A stretch of 64,000 nt of DNA, from NCBI RefSeq assembly GCF_947301925.1, contig NZ_CAMYUE010000012.1:1-64000 (forward strand), in the 5' to 3' direction. Under the pieces are notes generated by a model that saw only the letters and a list, made by a program, of their open reading frames with translations, was not told where the DNA came from and did not search any database. This document shows positions 18,183 through 26,161 of this stretch, piece by piece. Made by a program: the position numbers and the translations under genes. Source of the DNA: an uncultured Ruminococcus sp. GTDB lineage: Bacteria > Bacillota > Clostridia > Oscillospirales > Ruminococcaceae. Each line of letters opens with the position of its first letter. Position 1 is the stretch's first letter.

Positions 18183-19709
18183 ATGTTTGCAAAGGTATCG
18201 AGTCTGGGACTTTTCGGCCTGAATGCCTTTCCCGTAGATGTTGAGATAGATATCAGCCGCGGAAATCCCGTATTCGAGATAGTGGGACTTCCCGACACGG
18301 TGGTAAAGGAGAGCCGCGAGCGTATACGCGCAGCCCTGCGCTCATGCAGCATAAGCTTTCCCGTTGCCTCTGTTATGATAAACCTTGCCCCTGCCGACAC
18401 AAAAAAGAGCGGCTCGGTGCATGATATGGCCATATTCATGGCTATACTCCGCGCTATGCGTATGATAAGCGAGGATACCGACGGCAGCTCCTTCATCGGA
18501 GAGATATCCCTCAACGGCGATATCCGCCGCATAAACGGCGTGCTGCCCATGGTCATGCTTGCCCGTGAAAAGGGCATAAAATCGGTGTTCGTCCCTGCGG
18601 AGAACGCAAAGGAGGCCTCTGTCATAGACGGCGTGGACATATACGCAGTCAGCAATGCGGAGGAGCTTATCCGTCATTTCCGCAATGAGGAGAGGCTTTC
18701 TCCCTGCGAGAGGTATATACCGCCCGAGGCTGCCTATAACGAGCCCCTGGACTTCTCCGACGTAAGGGGACAGCAGTCAGCGAAAAAGGCGCTGGAGATA
18801 GCTGCGGCAGGCGGCCACAATGCCCTGCTGATAGGCTCTCCGGGAAGCGGAAAGAGTATGCTGGCAAAGCGTATGCCCTCCATACTTCCGCCCCTGACCT
18901 TTGAGGAGGCTCTTGAGACCACAAAGATACATTCCATTTCGGGATTACTTACTCCCGAAATGCCCATAATAACAAAAAGGCCCTTCCGCTCGCCCCATCA
19001 CACCATATCCTCGGCAGGACTTGCAGGCGGCGGCACAGTGCCCCACCCGGGAGAGGTATCCCTCGCCCATAACGGCCTGCTGTTTCTGGACGAGCTGGCG
19101 GAGTTCGACCGCAAGACCCTGGAGATTCTGCGTCAGCCCCTTGAGGACAGAAAGGTAACTATCGCAAGGGCGTCGGGGACAGTGACCTATCCCTGCACCA
19201 TTATGCTCATAGGAGCAATGAATCCCTGTCCCTGCGGCTATTACGGCCACCCGAAGAGGAAGTGCATCTGCCCGAAGAACAAGGTCACGGGCTATCTCTC
19301 AAAGATCTCGGGGCCGCTTCTTGACCGCTTCGACCTGCATATCGAGGTAGCTCCCGTGGAGTTCGGCGATCTTTCCTCAAAAATCAAGGAGGAGAGCTCC
19401 GCAGAGATAAGAAAGCGTGTAATTGCCGCAAGAGCCATACAGGAGCAGCGCTTCAGCGGTACGGGTATAACCTGCAATGCGCTGATAACTCCCGACAAGC
19501 TTCAGGAGTTCTGTCCCATGGACGACGCAGCGGAAACCCTGATGAAGAACGTTTTCGACAGGCTGGGACTCAGCGCCAGAGCCTACGACCGCATACTGAA
19601 GGTTGCAAGGACGATTGCGGATATAGACGGCTCAGAGGTGATAAAGAAGCCCCATGTTGCAGCGGCTGCTCAGTTCAGGAGCCTTGACCGCAAATACTGG
19701 AACGAGTGA
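18183..19709 (+). CDS. comM: ComM/YifB-family AAA+ ATPase (Mg-chelatase-like)
   Basis: A 508-residue protein with the full ComM layout: N-terminal Lon-protease-like domain (residues 1-165, from FAKVSSLGLFGLNAF), AAA+ core with Walker A GSPGSGKSMLAKRMP near residue 220 and Walker B LLFLDELAEF near residue 300, a zinc-ribbon-like insert (NPCPCGYYGHPKRKCIC, near residue 352) and the C-terminal Mg-chelatase helical domain. In naturally competent bacteria ComM is a branch-migration helicase; here the role is inferred from family only. The start ATG 18183 follows a purine-rich AAAGGGGG. Confidence 0.93.
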   Translation: MFAKVSSLGLFGLNAFPVDVEIDISRGNPVFEIVGLPDTVVKESRERIRAALRSCSISFPVASVMINLAPADTKKSGSVHDMAIFMAILRAMRMISEDTDGSSFIGEISLNGDIRRINGVLPMVMLAREKGIKSVFVPAENAKEASVIDGVDIYAVSNAEELIRHFRNEERLSPCERYIPPEAAYNEPLDFSDVRGQQSAKKALEIAAAGGHNALLIGSPGSGKSMLAKRMPSILPPLTFEEALETTKIHSISGLLTPEMPIITKRPFRSPHHTISSAGLAGGGTVPHPGEVSLAHNGLLFLDELAEFDRKTLEILRQPLEDRKVTIARASGTVTYPCTIMLIGAMNPCPCGYYGHPKRKCICPKNKVTGYLSKISGPLLDRFDLHIEVAPVEFGDLSSKIKEESSAEIRKRVIAARAIQEQRFSGTGITCNALITPDKLQEFCPMDDAAETLMKNVFDRLGLSARAYDRILKVARTIADIDGSEVIKKPHVAAAAQFRSLDRKYWNE

Positions 19710-19756
19710 CAGCTGTAGGGGACGGCGTCCCCGATGTCCCACCATGTACGGTCATC

Positions 19757-19943
19757 TTGTAGGGAACGCCTTCTCTTGCAAGGCGTTCCCTCTTCAAAAA
19801 CAGTCCACCGGACTGTTTTTGAATTCACCCTTTGCGAGGCGCCTGATGTATTCGTGGCGCTGCCCCGAACCCTGCCAGAGGCGCCGCCTCTGGACTCTGC
19901 CAAAGGGTTGTGAACCCTTTGGAATCCCTTTCATGGGCTCAGC
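19757..19943 (+). repeat. Family A structured intergenic element, copy 1
   Basis: Four hairpins in a row: GGGAACGCCTT with AAGGCGTTCCC; AAAAACAGTCC with GGACTGTTTTT; CCAGAGGC with GCCTCTGG; CCAAAGGG with CCCTTTGG. The element ends in TTCATGGGCTCAGC, about 20 bases before the rodA ribosome site. Copies lie at 29777 and 53773 in the same orientation. No coding content. A short G+C-rich palindrome also precedes it near 19718. Confidence 0.8.
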
Positions 19944-19973
19944 ATAATAAAGAAAAGATCAAAAGGAGAAACA

Positions 19974-21131
19974 ATGAAATCGGCATTCAAAAAACTGCCC
20001 TCGGGCAAACACAGTATAGACGCAGGACTGCTCTTTGCGGTCACGCTGTGCGCTGCCATAAGCACCCTGCTGATATATTCCATAACCTATAACAAGGTCC
20101 TTGAAACAGTGGGCTCCAGCTACTGGAAGACACAGGCCTTCTCCATGTGCGCAGGAATAGTTGCGGCGATAATAATATCTTTTATCGACTACCGCAAGCT
20201 GGTAAAGCTCTGGGTCGTATTCGTCCCCCTGTCACTGGTGCTGGTGGGACTGACCTTTACCTCTCTGGGCTATCAGCGAGAGGGCGCGGACGACCAGGCA
20301 TGGCTGAACCTCGGCTTTATCCAGTTCCAGCCCTCTGAGGTGCTGAAGCTGACCTTTATACTGACATTTGCCTATCATCTCTCACGGGATGAGGAGGATA
20401 TGAACAAGCCTCTGCATATGCTGCTGCTGATAATACACGGCATGATCCCCATAGGCATCATAGGACTTCAGGGCGACTACGGAACGGCTATCGTTTTTGC
20501 GGCAATATTCGTATTCATGATATGCTCCGCAAAGATATCCTGGAAGTACCTTGTTGCAGCTCCCTTTGTGGTAGCTGTGGGAGTTGCCGCCATGTGGTTC
20601 TTCGTGCTCAGCGAGTTCCACAAGAAGCGTATACTCATACTCTTCCACCCCGGAACAGACCCCGAGTATATCGAGTATCAGCAGGATCTGGGACTTGCAG
20701 CACTGAAATCGGGCGGAGTTTTCGGCAAGGGACTTTTCGGCAAGCCCGAGGACTATATCACCGTTCCCGAGATACACAATGACTTCATATTCACCTATGC
20801 AGGACAGGTATTCGGCTATGTGGGAACTCTGGGACTTATAATCATACTGGCATATATATGCCTGAAGATATTCGGCGACAGCCGTATCTGCCGCGATCAT
20901 CTGGGCAAGTTCATCTGCATGGGCGCCTTCGGACTGGTGCTCTCACACTGTATCATGAACGTGGGAATGGTACTGAAGGTAGCGCCCGTTATCGGTGTTC
21001 CGCTGCCCTTCCTCAGTGCGGGAGGCACCGCCCTTATAAGTATGTACGCCATGATCGGACTGGTGCTGAGCACCTACAGTCACCGCGCTGTGAATTACAA
21101 TGTATTCTATGATGAGGACGGGGAAGAATAA
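19974..21131 (+). CDS. rodA: SEDS peptidoglycan polymerase, RodA-like
   Basis: A 385-residue polytopic membrane protein of the RodA/FtsW/SpoVE family, which polymerises glycan strands from lipid II with a partner class B PBP. Signatures are WLNLGFIQFQPSEVLKL near residue 110, the long external loop with GLFGKPEDYITVPEIHNDFIFTYAGQ-type sequence near 250-275, and PVIGVPLPFLSAGGT near residue 340. About ten helices can be traced. The short acidic C terminus and lack of an FtsW-type N-terminal extension favour RodA, but SpoVE/FtsW cannot be excluded. AAAGGAG precedes ATG 19974. Confidence 0.92.
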   Translation: MKSAFKKLPSGKHSIDAGLLFAVTLCAAISTLLIYSITYNKVLETVGSSYWKTQAFSMCAGIVAAIIISFIDYRKLVKLWVVFVPLSLVLVGLTFTSLGYQREGADDQAWLNLGFIQFQPSEVLKLTFILTFAYHLSRDEEDMNKPLHMLLLIIHGMIPIGIIGLQGDYGTAIVFAAIFVFMICSAKISWKYLVAAPFVVAVGVAAMWFFVLSEFHKKRILILFHPGTDPEYIEYQQDLGLAALKSGGVFGKGLFGKPEDYITVPEIHNDFIFTYAGQVFGYVGTLGLIIILAYICLKIFGDSRICRDHLGKFICMGAFGLVLSHCIMNVGMVLKVAPVIGVPLPFLSAGGTALISMYAMIGLVLSTYSHRAVNYNVFYDEDGEE

Positions 21132-21161
21132 GCGCCCGTTCTCACAGATATATGCAACATC

Positions 21162-21189
21162 GCTCCCGTTATCATGCGGGAGCTTTTTT
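21162..21189 (+). terminator. Terminator after rodA
   Basis: GCTCCCG (21162-21168) pairs with CGGGAGC (21177-21183), eight-base loop, followed by TTTTTT. Confidence 0.9.
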
Positions 21190-21200
21190 CTGCTCCGAGG

Positions 21201-21229
21201 TTGACAAATGCTCCGTAAAGGAGTACAAT
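21201..21229 (+). promoter_or_regulatory. Promoter of the YGPP lipoprotein/radical SAM locus
   Basis: TTGACA (21201-21206), 17-base spacer, TACAAT (21224-21229), 31 bases before the first lipoprotein gene and just after the rodA terminator. A near-consensus, probably strong promoter. Confidence 0.88.
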
Positions 21230-21259
21230 TAAAGTAACTACAGATCGGAGGGGATATCC

Positions 21260-21538
21260 ATGAAAAAGAACAAGAAGACCGCACTTATGGCAGCTGTACT
21301 TACAGGAGCTGCCATGCTCACCGGCTGCGATCACGGCAGCGACAATGTTCAGGACGTTTACGGTCCGCCTGTGACGGAAAACACATCATCCTATGCCACA
21401 GTTCCCGCGGTGTACGGTCCTCCGCCGACGGACGAATTCGTTACCGATCCCATTACAGAGGCCGTTACCACGGATTATGACCCGTCGGAGGACAACGTGC
21501 AGATTGTATACGGTCCTCCCGAGACTCCCGAGCGATAA
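21260..21538 (+). CDS. Small lipoprotein with three VYGPP motifs (candidate modified precursor)
   Basis: A 92-residue lipoprotein: signal MKKNKKTALMAAVLTGAAML, lipobox LTGC, so lipid-anchored through Cys23. The mature part has no folded-domain look and carries three VYGPP motifs (DVYGPPV, AVYGPPP, IVYGPPE) separated by Thr/Asp/Glu/Pro-rich spacers; one copy is almost at the C terminus. GGAGGGG precedes ATG 21260. It is the first gene behind a strong promoter, and the second lipoprotein starts 22 bases later. Proximity to a radical SAM enzyme suggests the motifs are modification sites. Not recognised as a characterised family. Confidence 0.85.
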   Translation: MKKNKKTALMAAVLTGAAMLTGCDHGSDNVQDVYGPPVTENTSSYATVPAVYGPPPTDEFVTDPITEAVTTDYDPSEDNVQIVYGPPETPER

Positions 21539-21560
21539 GCTCCGCATCGGAGGTGCAGCC

Positions 21561-21839
21561 ATGAAAAAGAACCGGAAGACCGCCCTTATGGCGGCAATAC
21601 TCACAGGAGCCGCAATGCTGACGGGCTGCGATACGGGCGGCGACATCGTCACGGTCTACGGCCCTCCCACGGCTGAGGAGGCCGCTCCCGCCACGGATAG
21701 CATGGAAGGCGGCGACGGCGGCCAGATGATAAAGGGCTTCCGCGATATGATAGCGGATAAGTATCCCGAGGTCAATAATGACGGCTCGGGCAATGGTATG
21801 CAGGGAGAATATGATTTCCCTGAGGACGATGAATATTAA
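21561..21839 (+). CDS. Small lipoprotein with one VYGPP motif (candidate modified precursor)
   Basis: A 92-residue lipoprotein whose first 25 residues are almost the same as those of the preceding gene (MKKNRKTALMAAILTGAAML, lipobox LTGC), so the two arose by duplication. The single VYGPP follows soon after the lipid anchor (DIVTVYGPPTAEEA), and the remaining part is different: GQMIKGFRDMIADKYPEVNNDG and an acidic C terminus (YDFPEDDEY). CGGAGG lies seven bases before ATG 21561. Read in another frame the region gives a longer open frame, which is not real. Confidence 0.85.
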   Translation: MKKNRKTALMAAILTGAAMLTGCDTGGDIVTVYGPPTAEEAAPATDSMEGGDGGQMIKGFRDMIADKYPEVNNDGSGNGMQGEYDFPEDDEY

Positions 21840-21841
21840 AA

Positions 21842-21873
21842 CTGCACAAAGACTTCTTTGACCTTTTGTGCAG
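21842..21873 (+). other. Inverted repeat after the second lipoprotein gene
   Basis: CTGCACAAA (21842-21850) and TTTGTGCAG (21865-21873) are perfect arms. They start two bases after the stop codon and are followed by a mixed, not T-rich, sequence, so this could be a weak terminator or an mRNA-stabilising hairpin separating lipoprotein and dockerin gene expression. Confidence 0.6.
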
Positions 21874-21945
21874 GTATACAAAGATGGTAACAAAAGGGAA
21901 AAAGTCCGTACTTTTACGGCATTTATTTAATAGCACTGTGGAACC

Positions 21946-22005
21946 GTGACAGCCGAGCGTCCGATCACCATTCGGATATCACTTGCTGTCTCTTTCGGCT
22001 GTCAC
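21946..22005 (+). other. Structured leader before the dockerin/YG-motif gene
   Basis: GTGACAGCCGA (21946-21956) is perfectly complementary to TCGGCTGTCAC (21995-22005). Inside, TCCGA (21960-21964) pairs with TCGGA (21972-21976). The 60-base structure ends 32 bases before the ATG and lacks a T-tract, so it is not a simple terminator. It may be a regulatory 5' UTR element. Confidence 0.65.
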
Positions 22006-22036
22006 GCCATAGATCATCGAAAGGAGTGTTTTTATT

Positions 22037-22891
22037 ATGAAAAAGTCATTACGAACAGTTGTTACCGCAGCAATGTTCGCAGCAGCAAATATGTCTGCGC
22101 TTCCAACTATGGCTGCAGGGGACGAGATAATAAAGGAACAGAACGGAAACAGGGGAGTTTCTGAACAGAGCGCTGATATACAGCAGGATATAGTTGCCGC
22201 TACTACAACGACAGTTTATCCTGTTTACGGTACAAGGCCGCCTCATGAGCTGACTACCACAACTACCTCGACTACAAGCAATATCGAGGAGTTTCTGACC
22301 ATGACCACAACTACCGATTATCCCACGCCTCTCTACGGAACAACTGCACCTATAAACCTTGAGGAATACCTTACCACAACTACTACCGTTCCTCAGCCTG
22401 TTTACGGTCCTCCTATCCAGGACTGGGTGGGCGATGTGAACCTTGACGGCTCCGTTGACAGCTTTGACGTTCTCTCAGTAAGAAAGATGCTGATAAAGGG
22501 CACAGATAAGTACAGTGATGAGTATAAAGAGGCTTACTACGGTGACATGAACAACGACGGCAAGCTCACTATCGCTGATCTTATCCTGTTGCAGAAGTAC
22601 GTTCTGGGCAAGGTAACAAAGCAGGAGCTCCAGCAGCAGTTCCATTACTGGTACGGAAGCCATGATGTGGAGATAGAGCAGATCTATCCTGATGTTCCCG
22701 GAACAGCTCCCGAGAACAATCCCATTGCCACCACAACAACCACTGCCCCATATGATCCCCGTCAGGACGTTGTGGTAACTCTTTACGGCATAGCTCCCAT
22801 AAAGGACATTATCACTGACTTTACTGCTGAGGATCAGGATACCCCTGCTCAGGAGGCTCAGCCTCAGGATACTACAACTCAGGAGAAGTAA
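22037..22891 (+). CDS. Secreted dockerin protein with four YG..P motifs
   Basis: A 284-residue exported protein with a Sec signal (MKKSLRTVVTAAMFAAANMSA, cleavage near TMAA). Three motifs precede and one follows the dockerin: PVYGTRPPHE, PLYGTTAPIN, PVYGPPIQDW and TLYGIAPIKD, the first three set in Thr-rich linkers. The dockerin (about residues 135-200) has two calcium-loop repeats, GDVNLDGSVDSFD and GDMNNDGKLTIAD, and ends in YVLGKVTK. The motifs link it to the two preceding lipoproteins, and the dockerin links it to the cellulosome. AAAGGAG precedes ATG 22037, and the radical SAM gene starts three bases after the stop. Confidence 0.87.
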   Translation: MKKSLRTVVTAAMFAAANMSALPTMAAGDEIIKEQNGNRGVSEQSADIQQDIVAATTTTVYPVYGTRPPHELTTTTTSTTSNIEEFLTMTTTTDYPTPLYGTTAPINLEEYLTTTTTVPQPVYGPPIQDWVGDVNLDGSVDSFDVLSVRKMLIKGTDKYSDEYKEAYYGDMNNDGKLTIADLILLQKYVLGKVTKQELQQQFHYWYGSHDVEIEQIYPDVPGTAPENNPIATTTTTAPYDPRQDVVVTLYGIAPIKDIITDFTAEDQDTPAQEAQPQDTTTQEK

Positions 22892-22894
22892 GAT

Positions 22895-23968
22895 ATGCTC
22901 GATGAAAAAATGAAGCTGGATCATCTCAGACAGATGAGAGAATACAGGAGCTCGCTGATGAAAAAGCCTCAGCTCCGCAACCTTTTCCTGGAGCTTACCC
23001 TGCGCTGCAACGAGAGATGTATGCACTGCGGAAGCTACTGCGGAGAGGTACAGTCAGAGGAGCTGACTGTTGAACAGTACCGCACATTCCTTCAGCAGGT
23101 GAAGGAGGATATGACCACCAAGGGCAAGATGCTGGATATCACAGGCGGAGAGCCCCTGCTCAGGAAGGAATTCTTCGATATACTGGGAGCTGCTCACGAA
23201 CTGGGCTTTGCCTGGGGCATGACCAGCAACGCCACACTTATCGACGACAGCGTGGCAAGAGACCTGAAAAGAGTGGGCATGGGTACTATCTCCGTAAGCA
23301 TAGACGGCCTTGAGGAGACCCACGACGCCTTCAGAAGGACTCCCGGCGGCTATAAAAAGGCCATGAACGGCATCGAGAGCCTTATCCGTGTGGGCAGCTT
23401 CGATCATGTGCAGGTGACAACTGTGGTCACTCATCAGAATATAGGCCAGCTCGACGAGCTGTTCAAAATATTCAATGAAATGGATATCGACTCATGGAGA
23501 GTCATAAATATGGAGCCCATGGGACGTGCAAAGCAGCACCCCGAGCTCATACTCACCAAGGAGGACTATCAGACCCTCTTTGAGTTCATAAGGAACAAGA
23601 GGATTGCAGGCGAGCCCGTTACTTACGGCTGCAGCCACTATCTGGGTATGGAGTACGAGAGGGAGGTACGCGACTGGTACTTCCTTTGTACAGCAGGTCT
23701 GTACACCGCAAGTATCTGTGCAAACGGCGATATCATAGCCTGCCTCGACATCGAGCGCAGACCCGAGTTCGTACAGGGCAATATCCTCCGCGACCGCTTC
23801 AGCGATGTCTGGGAGAATAAATTTCAGATATTCAGGCGCGATCTTGCAGACGATAATGAGGTCTGTTCAAAGTGCGACCAGAAGGACTTCTGCCACGGCG
23901 ACGCATATCACAGCTGGGACTTCGACAACAACAGACCGCAGCTGTGCTTCAAGGACATACTGTTTTGA
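22895..23968 (+). CDS. Radical SAM/SPASM enzyme, probable maturase of YGPP proteins
   Basis: A 357-residue radical SAM protein. Residues 38, 42 and 45 are the CxxxCxxC [4Fe-4S] ligands (LRCNERCMHC); GGEP is at 84-87 and SVSIDGLEETHD near 140. The C-terminal third has the SPASM-type cysteines for auxiliary clusters: FLCTAG, ICANGDIIACLDIE, then CSKCDQKDFCHGD and LCF. From memory it is very like the radical SAM of the rSAM/lipoprotein systems of Bacteroidetes (LTLRCN.RC.HCGS.C, ITGGEPLLR, FVQGNI). It probably installs a radical-based change on peptide residues of the neighbouring YG-motif proteins; the reaction is unknown. The ribosome site (CAGGAGAA) lies inside the end of the preceding gene. 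Confidence 0.92.
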   Translation: MLDEKMKLDHLRQMREYRSSLMKKPQLRNLFLELTLRCNERCMHCGSYCGEVQSEELTVEQYRTFLQQVKEDMTTKGKMLDITGGEPLLRKEFFDILGAAHELGFAWGMTSNATLIDDSVARDLKRVGMGTISVSIDGLEETHDAFRRTPGGYKKAMNGIESLIRVGSFDHVQVTTVVTHQNIGQLDELFKIFNEMDIDSWRVINMEPMGRAKQHPELILTKEDYQTLFEFIRNKRIAGEPVTYGCSHYLGMEYEREVRDWYFLCTAGLYTASICANGDIIACLDIERRPEFVQGNILRDRFSDVWENKFQIFRRDLADDNEVCSKCDQKDFCHGDAYHSWDFDNNRPQLCFKDILF

Positions 23969-23988
23969 TTATTTCCTTCAGATCATTG

Positions 23989-24018
23989 GTACGGGAGCTA
24001 TGGCTCCCGTACTTTTTT
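23989..24018 (+). terminator. Terminator of the YGPP/radical SAM locus
   Basis: GTACGGGAGC (23989-23998), four-base loop, GCTCCCGTAC (24003-24012), then TTTTTT. A very stable terminator that closes the unit. Confidence 0.93.
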
Positions 24019-24070
24019 GCTCCTTTTTCGTCTTTCGGGATAATACTGCATAAATTATACCTGAAGGCTA

Positions 24071-24099
24071 TTGAAAAAAGCTGACGTATCTGCTATAAT
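24071..24099 (+). promoter_or_regulatory. Promoter of the M42 peptidase operon
   Basis: TTGAAA (24071-24076), 17-base spacer, TATAAT (24094-24099), 45 bases before the start codon. Confidence 0.85.
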
Positions 24100-24143
24100 A
24101 TATATTGATGTATTATGATCATGTAATGAAAGGAGTTAATGCA

Positions 24144-25154
24144 ATGGATCTGAAAAAAACCGTCACCGAGCTGGCTGAAGCTTCGGGTACCTCGGGAAGC
24201 GAAGAGGACGCAGCAGGCCTCGCCCTGTCAATGCTCCGGCAGTTCTGCCCCGACGCAGCCATATCGGGCGGAAATGTCATCGGACGCTTCGGCACCCATG
24301 TGGAAGGCCGTCCTTCCCTTGTCCTCGACGCCCATATCGATCAGGTGGGCTTTGCGGTGACCGCCGTCACCGACGAGGGTTTCATCAAGGTGGGGAATAT
24401 CGGAGGCATCGACCGCAGACTGCTTCCCGCACAGCCCGTTGTTATCCACGGAAAAAGCGATATCAAGGGCGTTATATGCTCCACACCGCCGCATCTTACC
24501 AATGGCAGGACACCCGTTCCCGAAATAAGCGACATCGCCATAGACGCAGGTATGTCCAGGGCAGAGCTGGAGCAGATAGTCTCCTCGGGCGATACCATCA
24601 CCTTTGACGCCGTATGCCGCGATCTTATAGGTACCCGTATCACAGGCGGAGCCCTTGACGACCGCTGCGGTGTTGCCGCTGTGCTCTATGCTCTGGAGCT
24701 TCTCGGCGGAGCGGAAACCGCCTATAACGTCACCGTTATCTTCTCCACACAGGAGGAGGTAGGCGAAAGGGGCGCAAAGATCGGCGCATTCGCCGTTGAT
24801 CCCGATATCGCCATAGCTGTTGACGTAAGCTTCGGATTTGCCATGGGCGAGGACGAGACCAAGTGCGGATATCTCGGAAGCGGCCCCATGATAGGCGTAT
24901 CCCCGTCGCTGTCCCGCGAGATCAGCGACAGTCTTGCCGCTGCTGCGGAGGCTGAGGATATCCCCTACCAGACAGAGGTCATGTGCGGACTTACTTCCAC
25001 CAATGCCGACCGCTATGCAGTCAGCCGCTGCGGCGCAAAGACCTGCACCGTGTCGATACCTCTGAGAAATATGCACACCCCCGTTGAGGTGATCGACCTC
25101 ACCGACGTTGAGCTTACCGCAAAGCTGCTTGCGGCATTCATAAAGGAGGGCTGA
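24144..25154 (+). CDS. M42 family aminopeptidase
   Basis: A 336-residue cytoplasmic metallopeptidase. The two-metal ligands can be seen as LDAHIDQVG (His near 66), GALDDRCG (Asp near 178), TQEEVGERGAK (catalytic Glu pair near 210), DVSFGFAMG (Asp near 232) and RNMHTPVEV (His near 315). The family removes N-terminal residues from peptides and often assembles as dodecameric shells. AAAGGAG precedes ATG 24144; in-frame ATGs upstream have no site. It overlaps the ribosome site of a second M42 gene, and the two may form hetero- or parallel complexes. Confidence 0.93.
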   Translation: MDLKKTVTELAEASGTSGSEEDAAGLALSMLRQFCPDAAISGGNVIGRFGTHVEGRPSLVLDAHIDQVGFAVTAVTDEGFIKVGNIGGIDRRLLPAQPVVIHGKSDIKGVICSTPPHLTNGRTPVPEISDIAIDAGMSRAELEQIVSSGDTITFDAVCRDLIGTRITGGALDDRCGVAAVLYALELLGGAETAYNVTVIFSTQEEVGERGAKIGAFAVDPDIAIAVDVSFGFAMGEDETKCGYLGSGPMIGVSPSLSREISDSLAAAAEAEDIPYQTEVMCGLTSTNADRYAVSRCGAKTCTVSIPLRNMHTPVEVIDLTDVELTAKLLAAFIKEG

Positions 25155-25156
25155 TG

Positions 25157-26161
25157 ATGAAGGAGCTTCTGAAAGAACTGTGCCTCGCCGACGGAGTGTC
25201 GGGGGACGAGGGCGCTGTCCGCGACCTCATAATCAGCAAGGTCAAGGACGTCTGCCAGTACAGCATAGACGATCTGGGAAATCTCATATGCTTCAGGAAG
25301 GGAAGAAAGGCTCCCAAAAAGAAACTGATGATATGCGCCCACATGGACGAGGTGGGCTTCATGGTAACGTATATCCGCTCCGACGGAACTCTCCGCTTTG
25401 ACTGCGTGGGAGGCATAGATCCCTCTGTAGTCATCGGAAGGCGGGTAAAGGTGGGCAGCAGCCGTATCAGCGGAGTCATCGGCTCTACTGCTGTACATAA
25501 TCTCAGCAAGGAGCAGCGCGAAAAGGCTCCCGATATTGACAGCCTGTATATCGACATCGGCGCTTCAAGCAGGGAGGAGGCCGAGAAATACGTTTTCCTC
25601 GGCGACTGTGTATACTTCGACGCTGAATTTGCGGAGCTGGGCGAGCACTGCGTAAGGTCAAAGGCTATCGACGACCGTGCAGGCTGCGCTATCATGATAA
25701 AGCTCATGCAGGAAAAGCCCGATTACGATACCTACTTCGTATTCAACGTACAGGAGGAGATAGGTCTCCGCGGTTCGGCGGTATCGTCATTCTCCGTGGC
25801 TCCCGATTTCGCCATCGTGCTGGAGGCCACCACCGCTGCGGATATCGACGGCGTTACAGGCGAGAAGAGAGTCTGCGAGCTTGGCAGAGGTCCCGTTGTG
25901 TCCTTCATGGACAAGAGGACCATCTACGACAAGGAGCTGTACAGACTGGCCTTCGACCTTGCAACCTGCCAGACCAAGACCATGATAGCAGGCGGCAACG
26001 ACGCAGGCTCAATACATATAAGCGGCAAGGGAGTCCGCACCATATCCGTGTCTGTACCGTGCAGATACCTCCATTCTCCCTCGTCGGTCATTGATATGTC
26101 CGACCTTGTAAGCTCATACAAGCTTGTGAAAAATCTTTCAAAGAGGATACCTTTACTATGA
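25157..26161 (+). CDS. M42 family aminopeptidase, second copy
   Basis: A 334-residue paralogue of the preceding peptidase. Ligand motifs are CAHMDEVGFM, SKAIDDRAGC, FNVQEEIGLRG, VLEATTAAD and RYLHSPSSV. Sequence outside the motifs has diverged considerably, so substrates may differ. Two ATGs follow the TGA of the first gene (25154, 25157); AAGGAGGG is three and six bases away, so I use the second. The GNAT gene overlaps its stop by four bases (ATGA). A three-gene peptide-processing operon is likely. Confidence 0.93.
   Translation: MKELLKELCLADGVSGDEGAVRDLIISKVKDVCQYSIDDLGNLICFRKGRKAPKKKLMICAHMDEVGFMVTYIRSDGTLRFDCVGGIDPSVVIGRRVKVGSSRISGVIGSTAVHNLSKEQREKAPDIDSLYIDIGASSREEAEKYVFLGDCVYFDAEFAELGEHCVRSKAIDDRAGCAIMIKLMQEKPDYDTYFVFNVQEEIGLRGSAVSSFSVAPDFAIVLEATTAADIDGVTGEKRVCELGRGPVVSFMDKRTIYDKELYRLAFDLATCQTKTMIAGGNDAGSIHISGKGVRTISVSVPCRYLHSPSSVIDMSDLVSSYKLVKNLSKRIPLL

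Follow-up and report, generated by a model that had tools for sequence, protein, structure and literature searches.

A radical SAM/SPASM enzyme and a portable YG-P tag in Ruminococcus and relatives: a candidate protein modification system

Introduction

The first 64,000 nucleotides of contig NZ_CAMYUE010000012.1 of an uncultured Ruminococcus sp. (this whole stretch is called the window) encode on the + strand a 357 amino acid (aa) radical S-adenosylmethionine (SAM)/SPASM enzyme (22895..23968, predicted YG-tag modifying), preceded by two lipoproteins and a secreted dockerin protein, all three featuring the motif YGPP or variants of it. These four proteins and their motifs had been reported in an earlier note on the window, and each is encoded where the note placed it. 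Proteins with YGPP or a related motif reside next to homologues of the enzyme at most of the loci analyzed, and the enzyme very likely acts on the YG-P motif. Enzyme and motif would make up a two-part protein modification system, the second part being a short linear tag carried by host proteins.

Enzyme and YGPP proteins as neighbours

The pairing was monitored at 80 loci, the best of 550 picked by enzyme homology in a genome collection, and in 297 genomes of the family; the two sets partly overlap. A YGPP open reading frame (ORF) lies on the same strand within 1.5 kb of the enzyme at 66 of the 80 loci, and within 500 bp at 65 of these, only YGPPG-GK proteins being left out of the count. Nine more loci feature a partner with another YG-x(1-4)-P motif, and two (L091, L111) have less than 300 bp of upstream sequence, being at contig edges. 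The enzyme homologues are thus regularly accompanied by a YG.P protein; a regular lack of one, by which the earlier note would have seen its reading refuted, was not observed. Around background anchors on the same contigs, YGPP ORFs were found in 4 of 362 cases. The 298 ORFs near the 80 enzymes contain 187 copies of YGPP, against a single copy for the 11 alternative arrangements of these letters taken together, and YGPP is therefore far above chance in the vicinity of the enzyme.

Within the family, enzyme homologues reside in 20 of the 297 genomes, including that of the window. Same-strand YGPP proteins were detected in the 1.5-kb flanks in 17 of the 19 other genomes (in L027, the carrier of YGPP is DUF805-like and its sequence is broken by N), and none in the same flanks in L016 and L017.

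Among the recurrent neighbours of the enzyme the YGPP proteins come first, one BLAST cluster reaching 42 of the 80 loci and the next clusters 7. An ABC-transporter-like cluster (named by eye) is found at 7 of the 80 loci, with mixed strands. No conserved peptidase or exporter was found in the 28 largest neighbour clusters (80 loci, ORFs of at least 90 aa, within 5 kb). A papain-like protease gene (by eye) lies directly 3' of an enzyme gene without local tagged partner in L046 (3484-5373) and L047 (3785-5740).

Sequence of the motif

The residue preceding the Tyr is V in 70% and L in 19% of 241 distinct segments spanning the motif. At -11, 49% of the segments have Y or F; P is found at -9 in 40%, N at -6 in 38%, and F at +6 in 37%. 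The 93 partner proteins compared were selected for having YGPP, and their 256 YGPP counts are thus no evidence. The evidence in the motif is the unvaried Tyr and Gly against the varied prolines: the 93 proteins contain no Y-x-PP in which x is anything but Gly, and no [VLI]-x-GPP in which x is anything but Tyr, while they feature YG followed by a residue other than P and then P in 10 cases, YGP followed by a residue other than P in 15, and YG separated from P by two other residues in 12. The earlier note had taken the motif for the substrate site of the enzyme. From the comparisons such a role seems likely, and Y-G is, with good probability, the site modified; what is done to it can be proposed by inference only, as discussed below.

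Tagged proteins near the enzyme

Lipoproteins and secreted dockerin proteins, the carriers named in the earlier note, are the main tagged proteins near the window, but this list is too narrow, because the tag also sits on other, unrelated scaffolds: zinc ribbons, DUF805 proteins, purine nucleoside phosphorylases (two) and one protein resembling an acetyltransferase. DUF805 membrane proteins carry the tag in L025 and L117 (Pfam), and in L026, L027 and L143 (by look). Zinc ribbons with the tag are neighbours of the enzyme in L129 and L131 (Pfam), and in L124, L125 (YGPMP) and L128 (by similarity). The zinc-ribbon/enzyme pairs of L124, L128 and L129 are close to a Bacillota pair, and the records are labelled as Thermoguttaceae, planctomycete or Anaerolineaceae from ruminant metagenomes; either gene transfer or misbinned contigs would account for this. 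In a distant clade (L130, L132, L136, L138) the partners are membrane proteins, and their motifs are of the YG(V/I) type.

TIGR04134-scoring lipoproteins of Bacteroidota and Treponema feature YGMP or YGSP shortly past the lipobox (L006, L007, L142, L144), and YGTP is found in two homologues of such lipoproteins (P0136, P0137), as in a Phocaeicola ORF at L250 which is TIGR04134-like by look and unscored against the model. The statement, in the earlier note, that partners of this type carry a YG.P motif agrees with the YG[MST]P of the lipoproteins analyzed; the Bacteroidota lipoprotein search yielded five homologues, too few for a family-wide test. In L142 (3408-5972) two TIGR04134 lipoproteins and an 80-aa lipoprotein-like ORF with KYGMPISKYGMPP are all located 5' of one enzyme. 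In L248 (1641-2354) three tandem DUF1843 proteins adjoin a related radical SAM enzyme; they feature MYAASI, LYAAGI or PYGAGI near the N-terminus, and are preceded by a rimK gene and followed by a methyltransferase gene.

Tagged proteins encoded away from the enzyme

The genome of the window encodes on another contig (L045:1371-1664) a 97-aa zinc-ribbon-like protein with VYGPPP, its Pfam ribbon scores being just under the cutoffs. Relatives of this protein were found in 3 of the 297 family genomes, all within the 20 which bear the enzyme (p ~3e-4 by hand arithmetic if independent, two of the three genomes being of one genus). A zinc-ribbon search of the protein collection gave 12 homologues, three of which (P0125, P0130, P0131) lack an exact YGPP. 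The gene in the genome of the window adjoins an argininosuccinate lyase (argH)-like gene (by eye). With L200 and L201, in which the neighbours are argC-like (by eye), this makes three enzyme-bearing genomes where a tagged zinc-ribbon-like gene adjoins arginine-biosynthesis-like genes.

Purine nucleoside phosphorylases with an N-terminal extension containing two or three YGPP, and unlinked to the enzyme, were found in two enzyme-bearing genomes (L176:1644-2783, L177:1501-2583) of one genus, the same to which two of the zinc-ribbon genomes belong. The alignment of the other purine nucleoside phosphorylase matches does not begin before residue 78, G002 (residue 56, across a stop codon) being the one exception, and no tag is present in the five that were read (L179, L182, L188, L190, L198). 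The tag is not a general feature of purine nucleoside phosphorylases, being limited to two genomes of one genus.

In a further enzyme-bearing genome an acetyltransferase-like protein (by eye) features an N-terminal VYGPP (L223, contig 18 of G295), and two proteins of 258-260 aa with a signal-like start contain one tag each. G096 and G292, in which the enzyme has no local partner, encode at distant loci proteins that combine YGPP and dockerin-like repeats (by eye), at least five in the former and two in the latter.

Genome-wide counts of a bare 11-base YGPP pattern did not separate enzyme-bearing from enzyme-free genomes, because chance frames and the Walker A sites of AAA+ proteins (YGPPG-GK) swamp them, and a reversed control pattern was often equally frequent; only clustered sites are informative. 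Two YGPP sites on the same strand within about 600 bp, taken to mark a protein with repeated tags, were found in 7 of 7 enzyme-bearing genomes (G000, G071, G188, G282, G295, G096 and G292, a non-random set made up of those with complete site lists) vs. 0 of 18 enzyme-free genomes (drawn from 20, with G008 and G012 left out for want of complete site lists; four of the 18 genomes are less than 90% complete).

Organization of the locus

Lipoprotein 1 (21260..21538) and lipoprotein 2 (21561..21839) are both 92 aa long, with nearly identical signal peptides and a lipobox LTGC, and contain three and one VYGPP, respectively; the ORF called in the frame of lipoprotein 2 is longer than the protein given here. 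Lipoprotein 2 gave no relevant family match. The 284-aa secreted protein (22037..22891) has a type I dockerin (Dockerin_1, E=1.1e-12) and the motifs YGTRPP, YGTTAP, YGPP and YGIAP, in all of which a proline follows within few residues. The start codon of the enzyme is 3 bp past the stop of the dockerin gene. All these genes are on the + strand, as are the signals that flank them.

The strong promoter and strong terminator of the earlier note correspond to a promoter-like TTGACA-17-TACAAT (21201..21229; 11/12 in a scan for the sigma-70-like consensus) and to an intrinsic-terminator-like stem of 11 pairs followed by a T-run (23988..24013). Promoter-like sites of this kind were seen 7 times vs. 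3.7 expected in shuffles, and the scan carries no weight for function. The whole gene set may form a single transcript, but a perfect 12-bp inverted repeat (arms 21945-21956 and 21995-22006, 38 nt between arms) lies in the gap between the lipoprotein 2 and dockerin genes. This repeat is a candidate operator or RNA hairpin; the region 19000-26000, inverted repeat included, gave no Rfam match at gathering scores.

Family assignment and phylogeny of the enzyme

The enzyme matches Radical_SAM (5.6e-20) and SPASM (2.3e-8), and its cysteine motif is CNERCMHC. Among relatives assigned to a species, the closest belong to Ruminococcus flavefaciens, at 87% identity, and at 86% in its strain YL228 (L067). 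The TIGR04133/TIGR04134 pair, named in the earlier note, supplies the nearest named family: TIGR04133 is the best family model (271.1 bits; the runner-up scores 136 bits), but the score is under the curated cutoff of 425, and neither lipoprotein of the window matches TIGR04134 at E up to 1. The NCBIfam names of the two models (rSAM_w_lipo, lipo_with_rSAM) are placeholders only. The predicted fold is common to SuiB, CteB and PqqE, and no splicease structure was among those listed in the structure comparison. TIGR04103, which we take to be the class of PlpX (IPR026482), gave no match above cutoff in 149 Bacillota genomes, and for this reason no certified splicease is among the sequences compared.

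At E up to 1e-40 the TIGR04133 model found two other responding genomes among 199 of the phylum. Both enzymes adjoin leader-type precursors (by eye), which contain AYGIARP and AYGVP, and one of the two enzymes scores 221 bits to TIGR04103, below cutoff. A small unannotated ORF upstream of an Agathobacter relative ends with MYGTGVRM. In the tree, the two AYG-precursor enzymes and those of Agathobacter and Aureibacter form the sister group of YGPP plus TIGR04133 enzymes, and the whole is set apart from MftC and others. The grouping of window-type with splicease-like enzymes is moderately supported by the sequences (92/93, below the starred level of the tree tool, with few outgroups and several long branches).

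Proposed modification

According to passages of PMC10533398, PlpXY splices MYG and LYG naturally, and published variants of the splice tag, including PLFPIRPGYGLPI and GAVAAGYGVVFPG, are of the type Y-G-x(1-3)-P; the PLFPIRPGYGLPI tag was modified in FtsZ. The same article cites Scott et al. 2022 as reporting 939 predicted splicease systems. The modification is called widespread, and PlpX said to contain SPASM, in part of a review (PMC11002830). The literature search, to which the survey of Scott et al. is external, gave no description of TIGR04133, of YGPP with radical SAM, or of radical SAM/dockerin/Ruminococcus; the survey may already include this enzyme clade.

The parallel with PlpX spliceases, which excise tyramine (C8H9NO) from the protein backbone, is an addition of the present analysis, as the earlier note proposed no chemistry. 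The enzyme would recognize a tag approximating [F/Y]-x-P-x-x-[N/D/E]-x4-[V/L]-Y-G-x(0-3)-P, before export or folding of the carrier, and would modify it at the Y-G step. The tag would be portable, the local lipoproteins and dockerin protein being the main carriers, and proteins encoded elsewhere being used as well. By analogy, this could be a splicease-like, tag-directed protein modification rather than the source of a released peptide, a reading to which we give an even chance. The term RiPP-like (RiPP, ribosomally synthesized and post-translationally modified peptide) of the earlier note is, in our opinion, better replaced by general protein modification. Excision of tyramine is the single most likely chemistry, though as apt to be wrong as right, with Tyr crosslinking coming next; it is ranked first because the X-Y-G/Pro site resembles that of PlpXY, and because enzymes with AYG precursors form the sister group.

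Several data weigh against a splicease-like reaction. GPIRPLYGLPI and GAVAAGYGVVFPG are among many placements of the tag in FtsZ listed as unmodified in passages of PMC10533398, and the motif alone therefore gives no guarantee of splicing. The enzyme of the window scores 113.6 bits to TIGR04103 (cutoff 725), less than to the heme b synthase (136 bits) and mycofactocin maturase (135 bits) models, so that splicing is not favoured by sequence scores alone. The strong Pro-Pro conservation is unaccounted for by an X-Y-G rule. PlpX acts with the small partner PlpY, and no PlpY-like partner turned up here: the YG proteins are the only conserved small ORFs that directly adjoin the enzyme, but a partner may be encoded at a distance or be fused. 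At 3 of the 80 loci a convincing YG-x-P partner is missing (L102; L110, which has YGPS and was scored as partnerless; L135, scored likewise, its YG-x-P match being in a 381-aa ORF without other likeness). The limits of the tree given above add to these points.

The same enzyme and tag could instead produce a crosslink within Y-G-x-P (-2 Da), either a three-residue cyclophane (Tyr ring bonded to the third residue at its beta carbon), an ether, or a Gly-alpha bond. This is possible, though decidedly less probable than splicing. Y-G-x is compatible with the aromatic-x-x triceptide motif, but a fixed Gly and Tyr are atypical: cyclophane motifs vary at the middle position and accept other aromatics, whereas neither Gly nor Tyr was seen to vary here, and a third position occupied by Pro, Met, Thr, Ser, Ala, Val or Ile would demand a very permissive enzyme. 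The preferences for an aromatic residue at -11, for P at -9 and for N at -6 have the look of a binding site, as if the tag were a docking handle only and the enzyme modified another residue or another partner; yet nothing outside Y-G-P was seen to be common to zinc ribbons, lipoproteins, dockerins, DUF805 and TIGR04134 proteins, so that no other shared target residue is apparent and this reading is improbable. A shade less probable still is a classical RiPP pathway, the small tagged proteins being precursors that are cleaved to yield a short modified peptide for export: repeated cores in small proteins recall multi-core precursors, and the sister clade has precursors of the leader type, but the 28 largest neighbour clusters (ORFs of at least 90 aa, within 5 kb) hold no conserved peptidase or exporter, and whole enzymes and membrane proteins are among the carriers. 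Chance association, or YGPP as a structural linker with the enzyme acting on something unrelated, is hardly credible in view of the letter-permutation and background-anchor controls and of the distribution of paired YGPP sites, although YGPP alone is unspecific, as AAA+ ATPases with YGPPG-GK for other reasons and the failure of bare-pattern counts indicate.

Possible functions and implications

If tag-directed splicing does occur, tagged proteins might present ketoamide protease traps, or backbones that resist proteases, on the cell surface or the cellulosome. According to part of PMC11117315, the products of spliceotide systems inhibit proteases, and a ketoamide at Val/Leu before Gly-Pro-Pro would, speculatively, resemble a protease trap facing outwards, borne by the cell or by the dockerin. 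A protease-related role is speculation, and unlikely rather than likely. Tagged proteins that look cytosolic fit a trap poorly; altered backbone stability or partner binding may be imagined for them.

It is conceivable, with somewhat less than an even chance, that tag-directed backbone splicing is widespread in anaerobic gut bacteria, one enzyme acting in trans and leaving ribosomally made beta-amino (ketoamide) residues in the normal proteome, not in a secreted peptide. Common bacteria of the rumen and gut, fibre degraders included, would then regularly have non-standard backbone residues in their surface and cytosolic proteins; the tag would be a compact tool for placing reactive ketoamides in proteins; and a function would be suggested for the TIGR04133/TIGR04134 pair of Bacteroidota. 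For an enzyme family with a placeholder name the prediction is concrete and easy to test: the mass of specified proteins would be altered by a fixed amount at Val-Tyr-Gly.

Comparison with known systems

With the TIGR04133/TIGR04134 pair the system shares the best family match, the two-gene layout, and a lipoprotein partner with YG-x-P. It differs because the enzyme of the window scores under 425, its lipoproteins are unmatched by TIGR04134 and feature repeated YGPP, and the tag of this branch is found in dockerins, zinc ribbons, DUF805 proteins and enzymes too. Anaerobic sulfatase-maturating enzymes target C/S-x-P-x-R, which is not the motif shared here, and anSMEcpe differs in both substrate and product. 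SuiB, CteB, PqqE and MftC act on dedicated small precursors, whereas the tags found here are mostly internal, and reside in many proteins. The target of MftC is a Tyr adjacent to Val, as stated in part of PMC8326336, and mftA ends with GVY; a Tyr adjoining Val as the site recalls the V-Y of the tags.

The system differs from PlpX in having no leader-type precursor and a low TIGR04103 score. The likeness to PlpX lies in the combination of radical SAM and SPASM domains, and in a Y-G which mostly follows a hydrophobic residue and has a Pro within few residues, X-Y-G being here the putative substrate site. Ketoamide formation by PlpX is independent of the leader, and a ten-residue tag was used in other proteins (passages of PMC10533398), just as the tag described here resides in many scaffolds.

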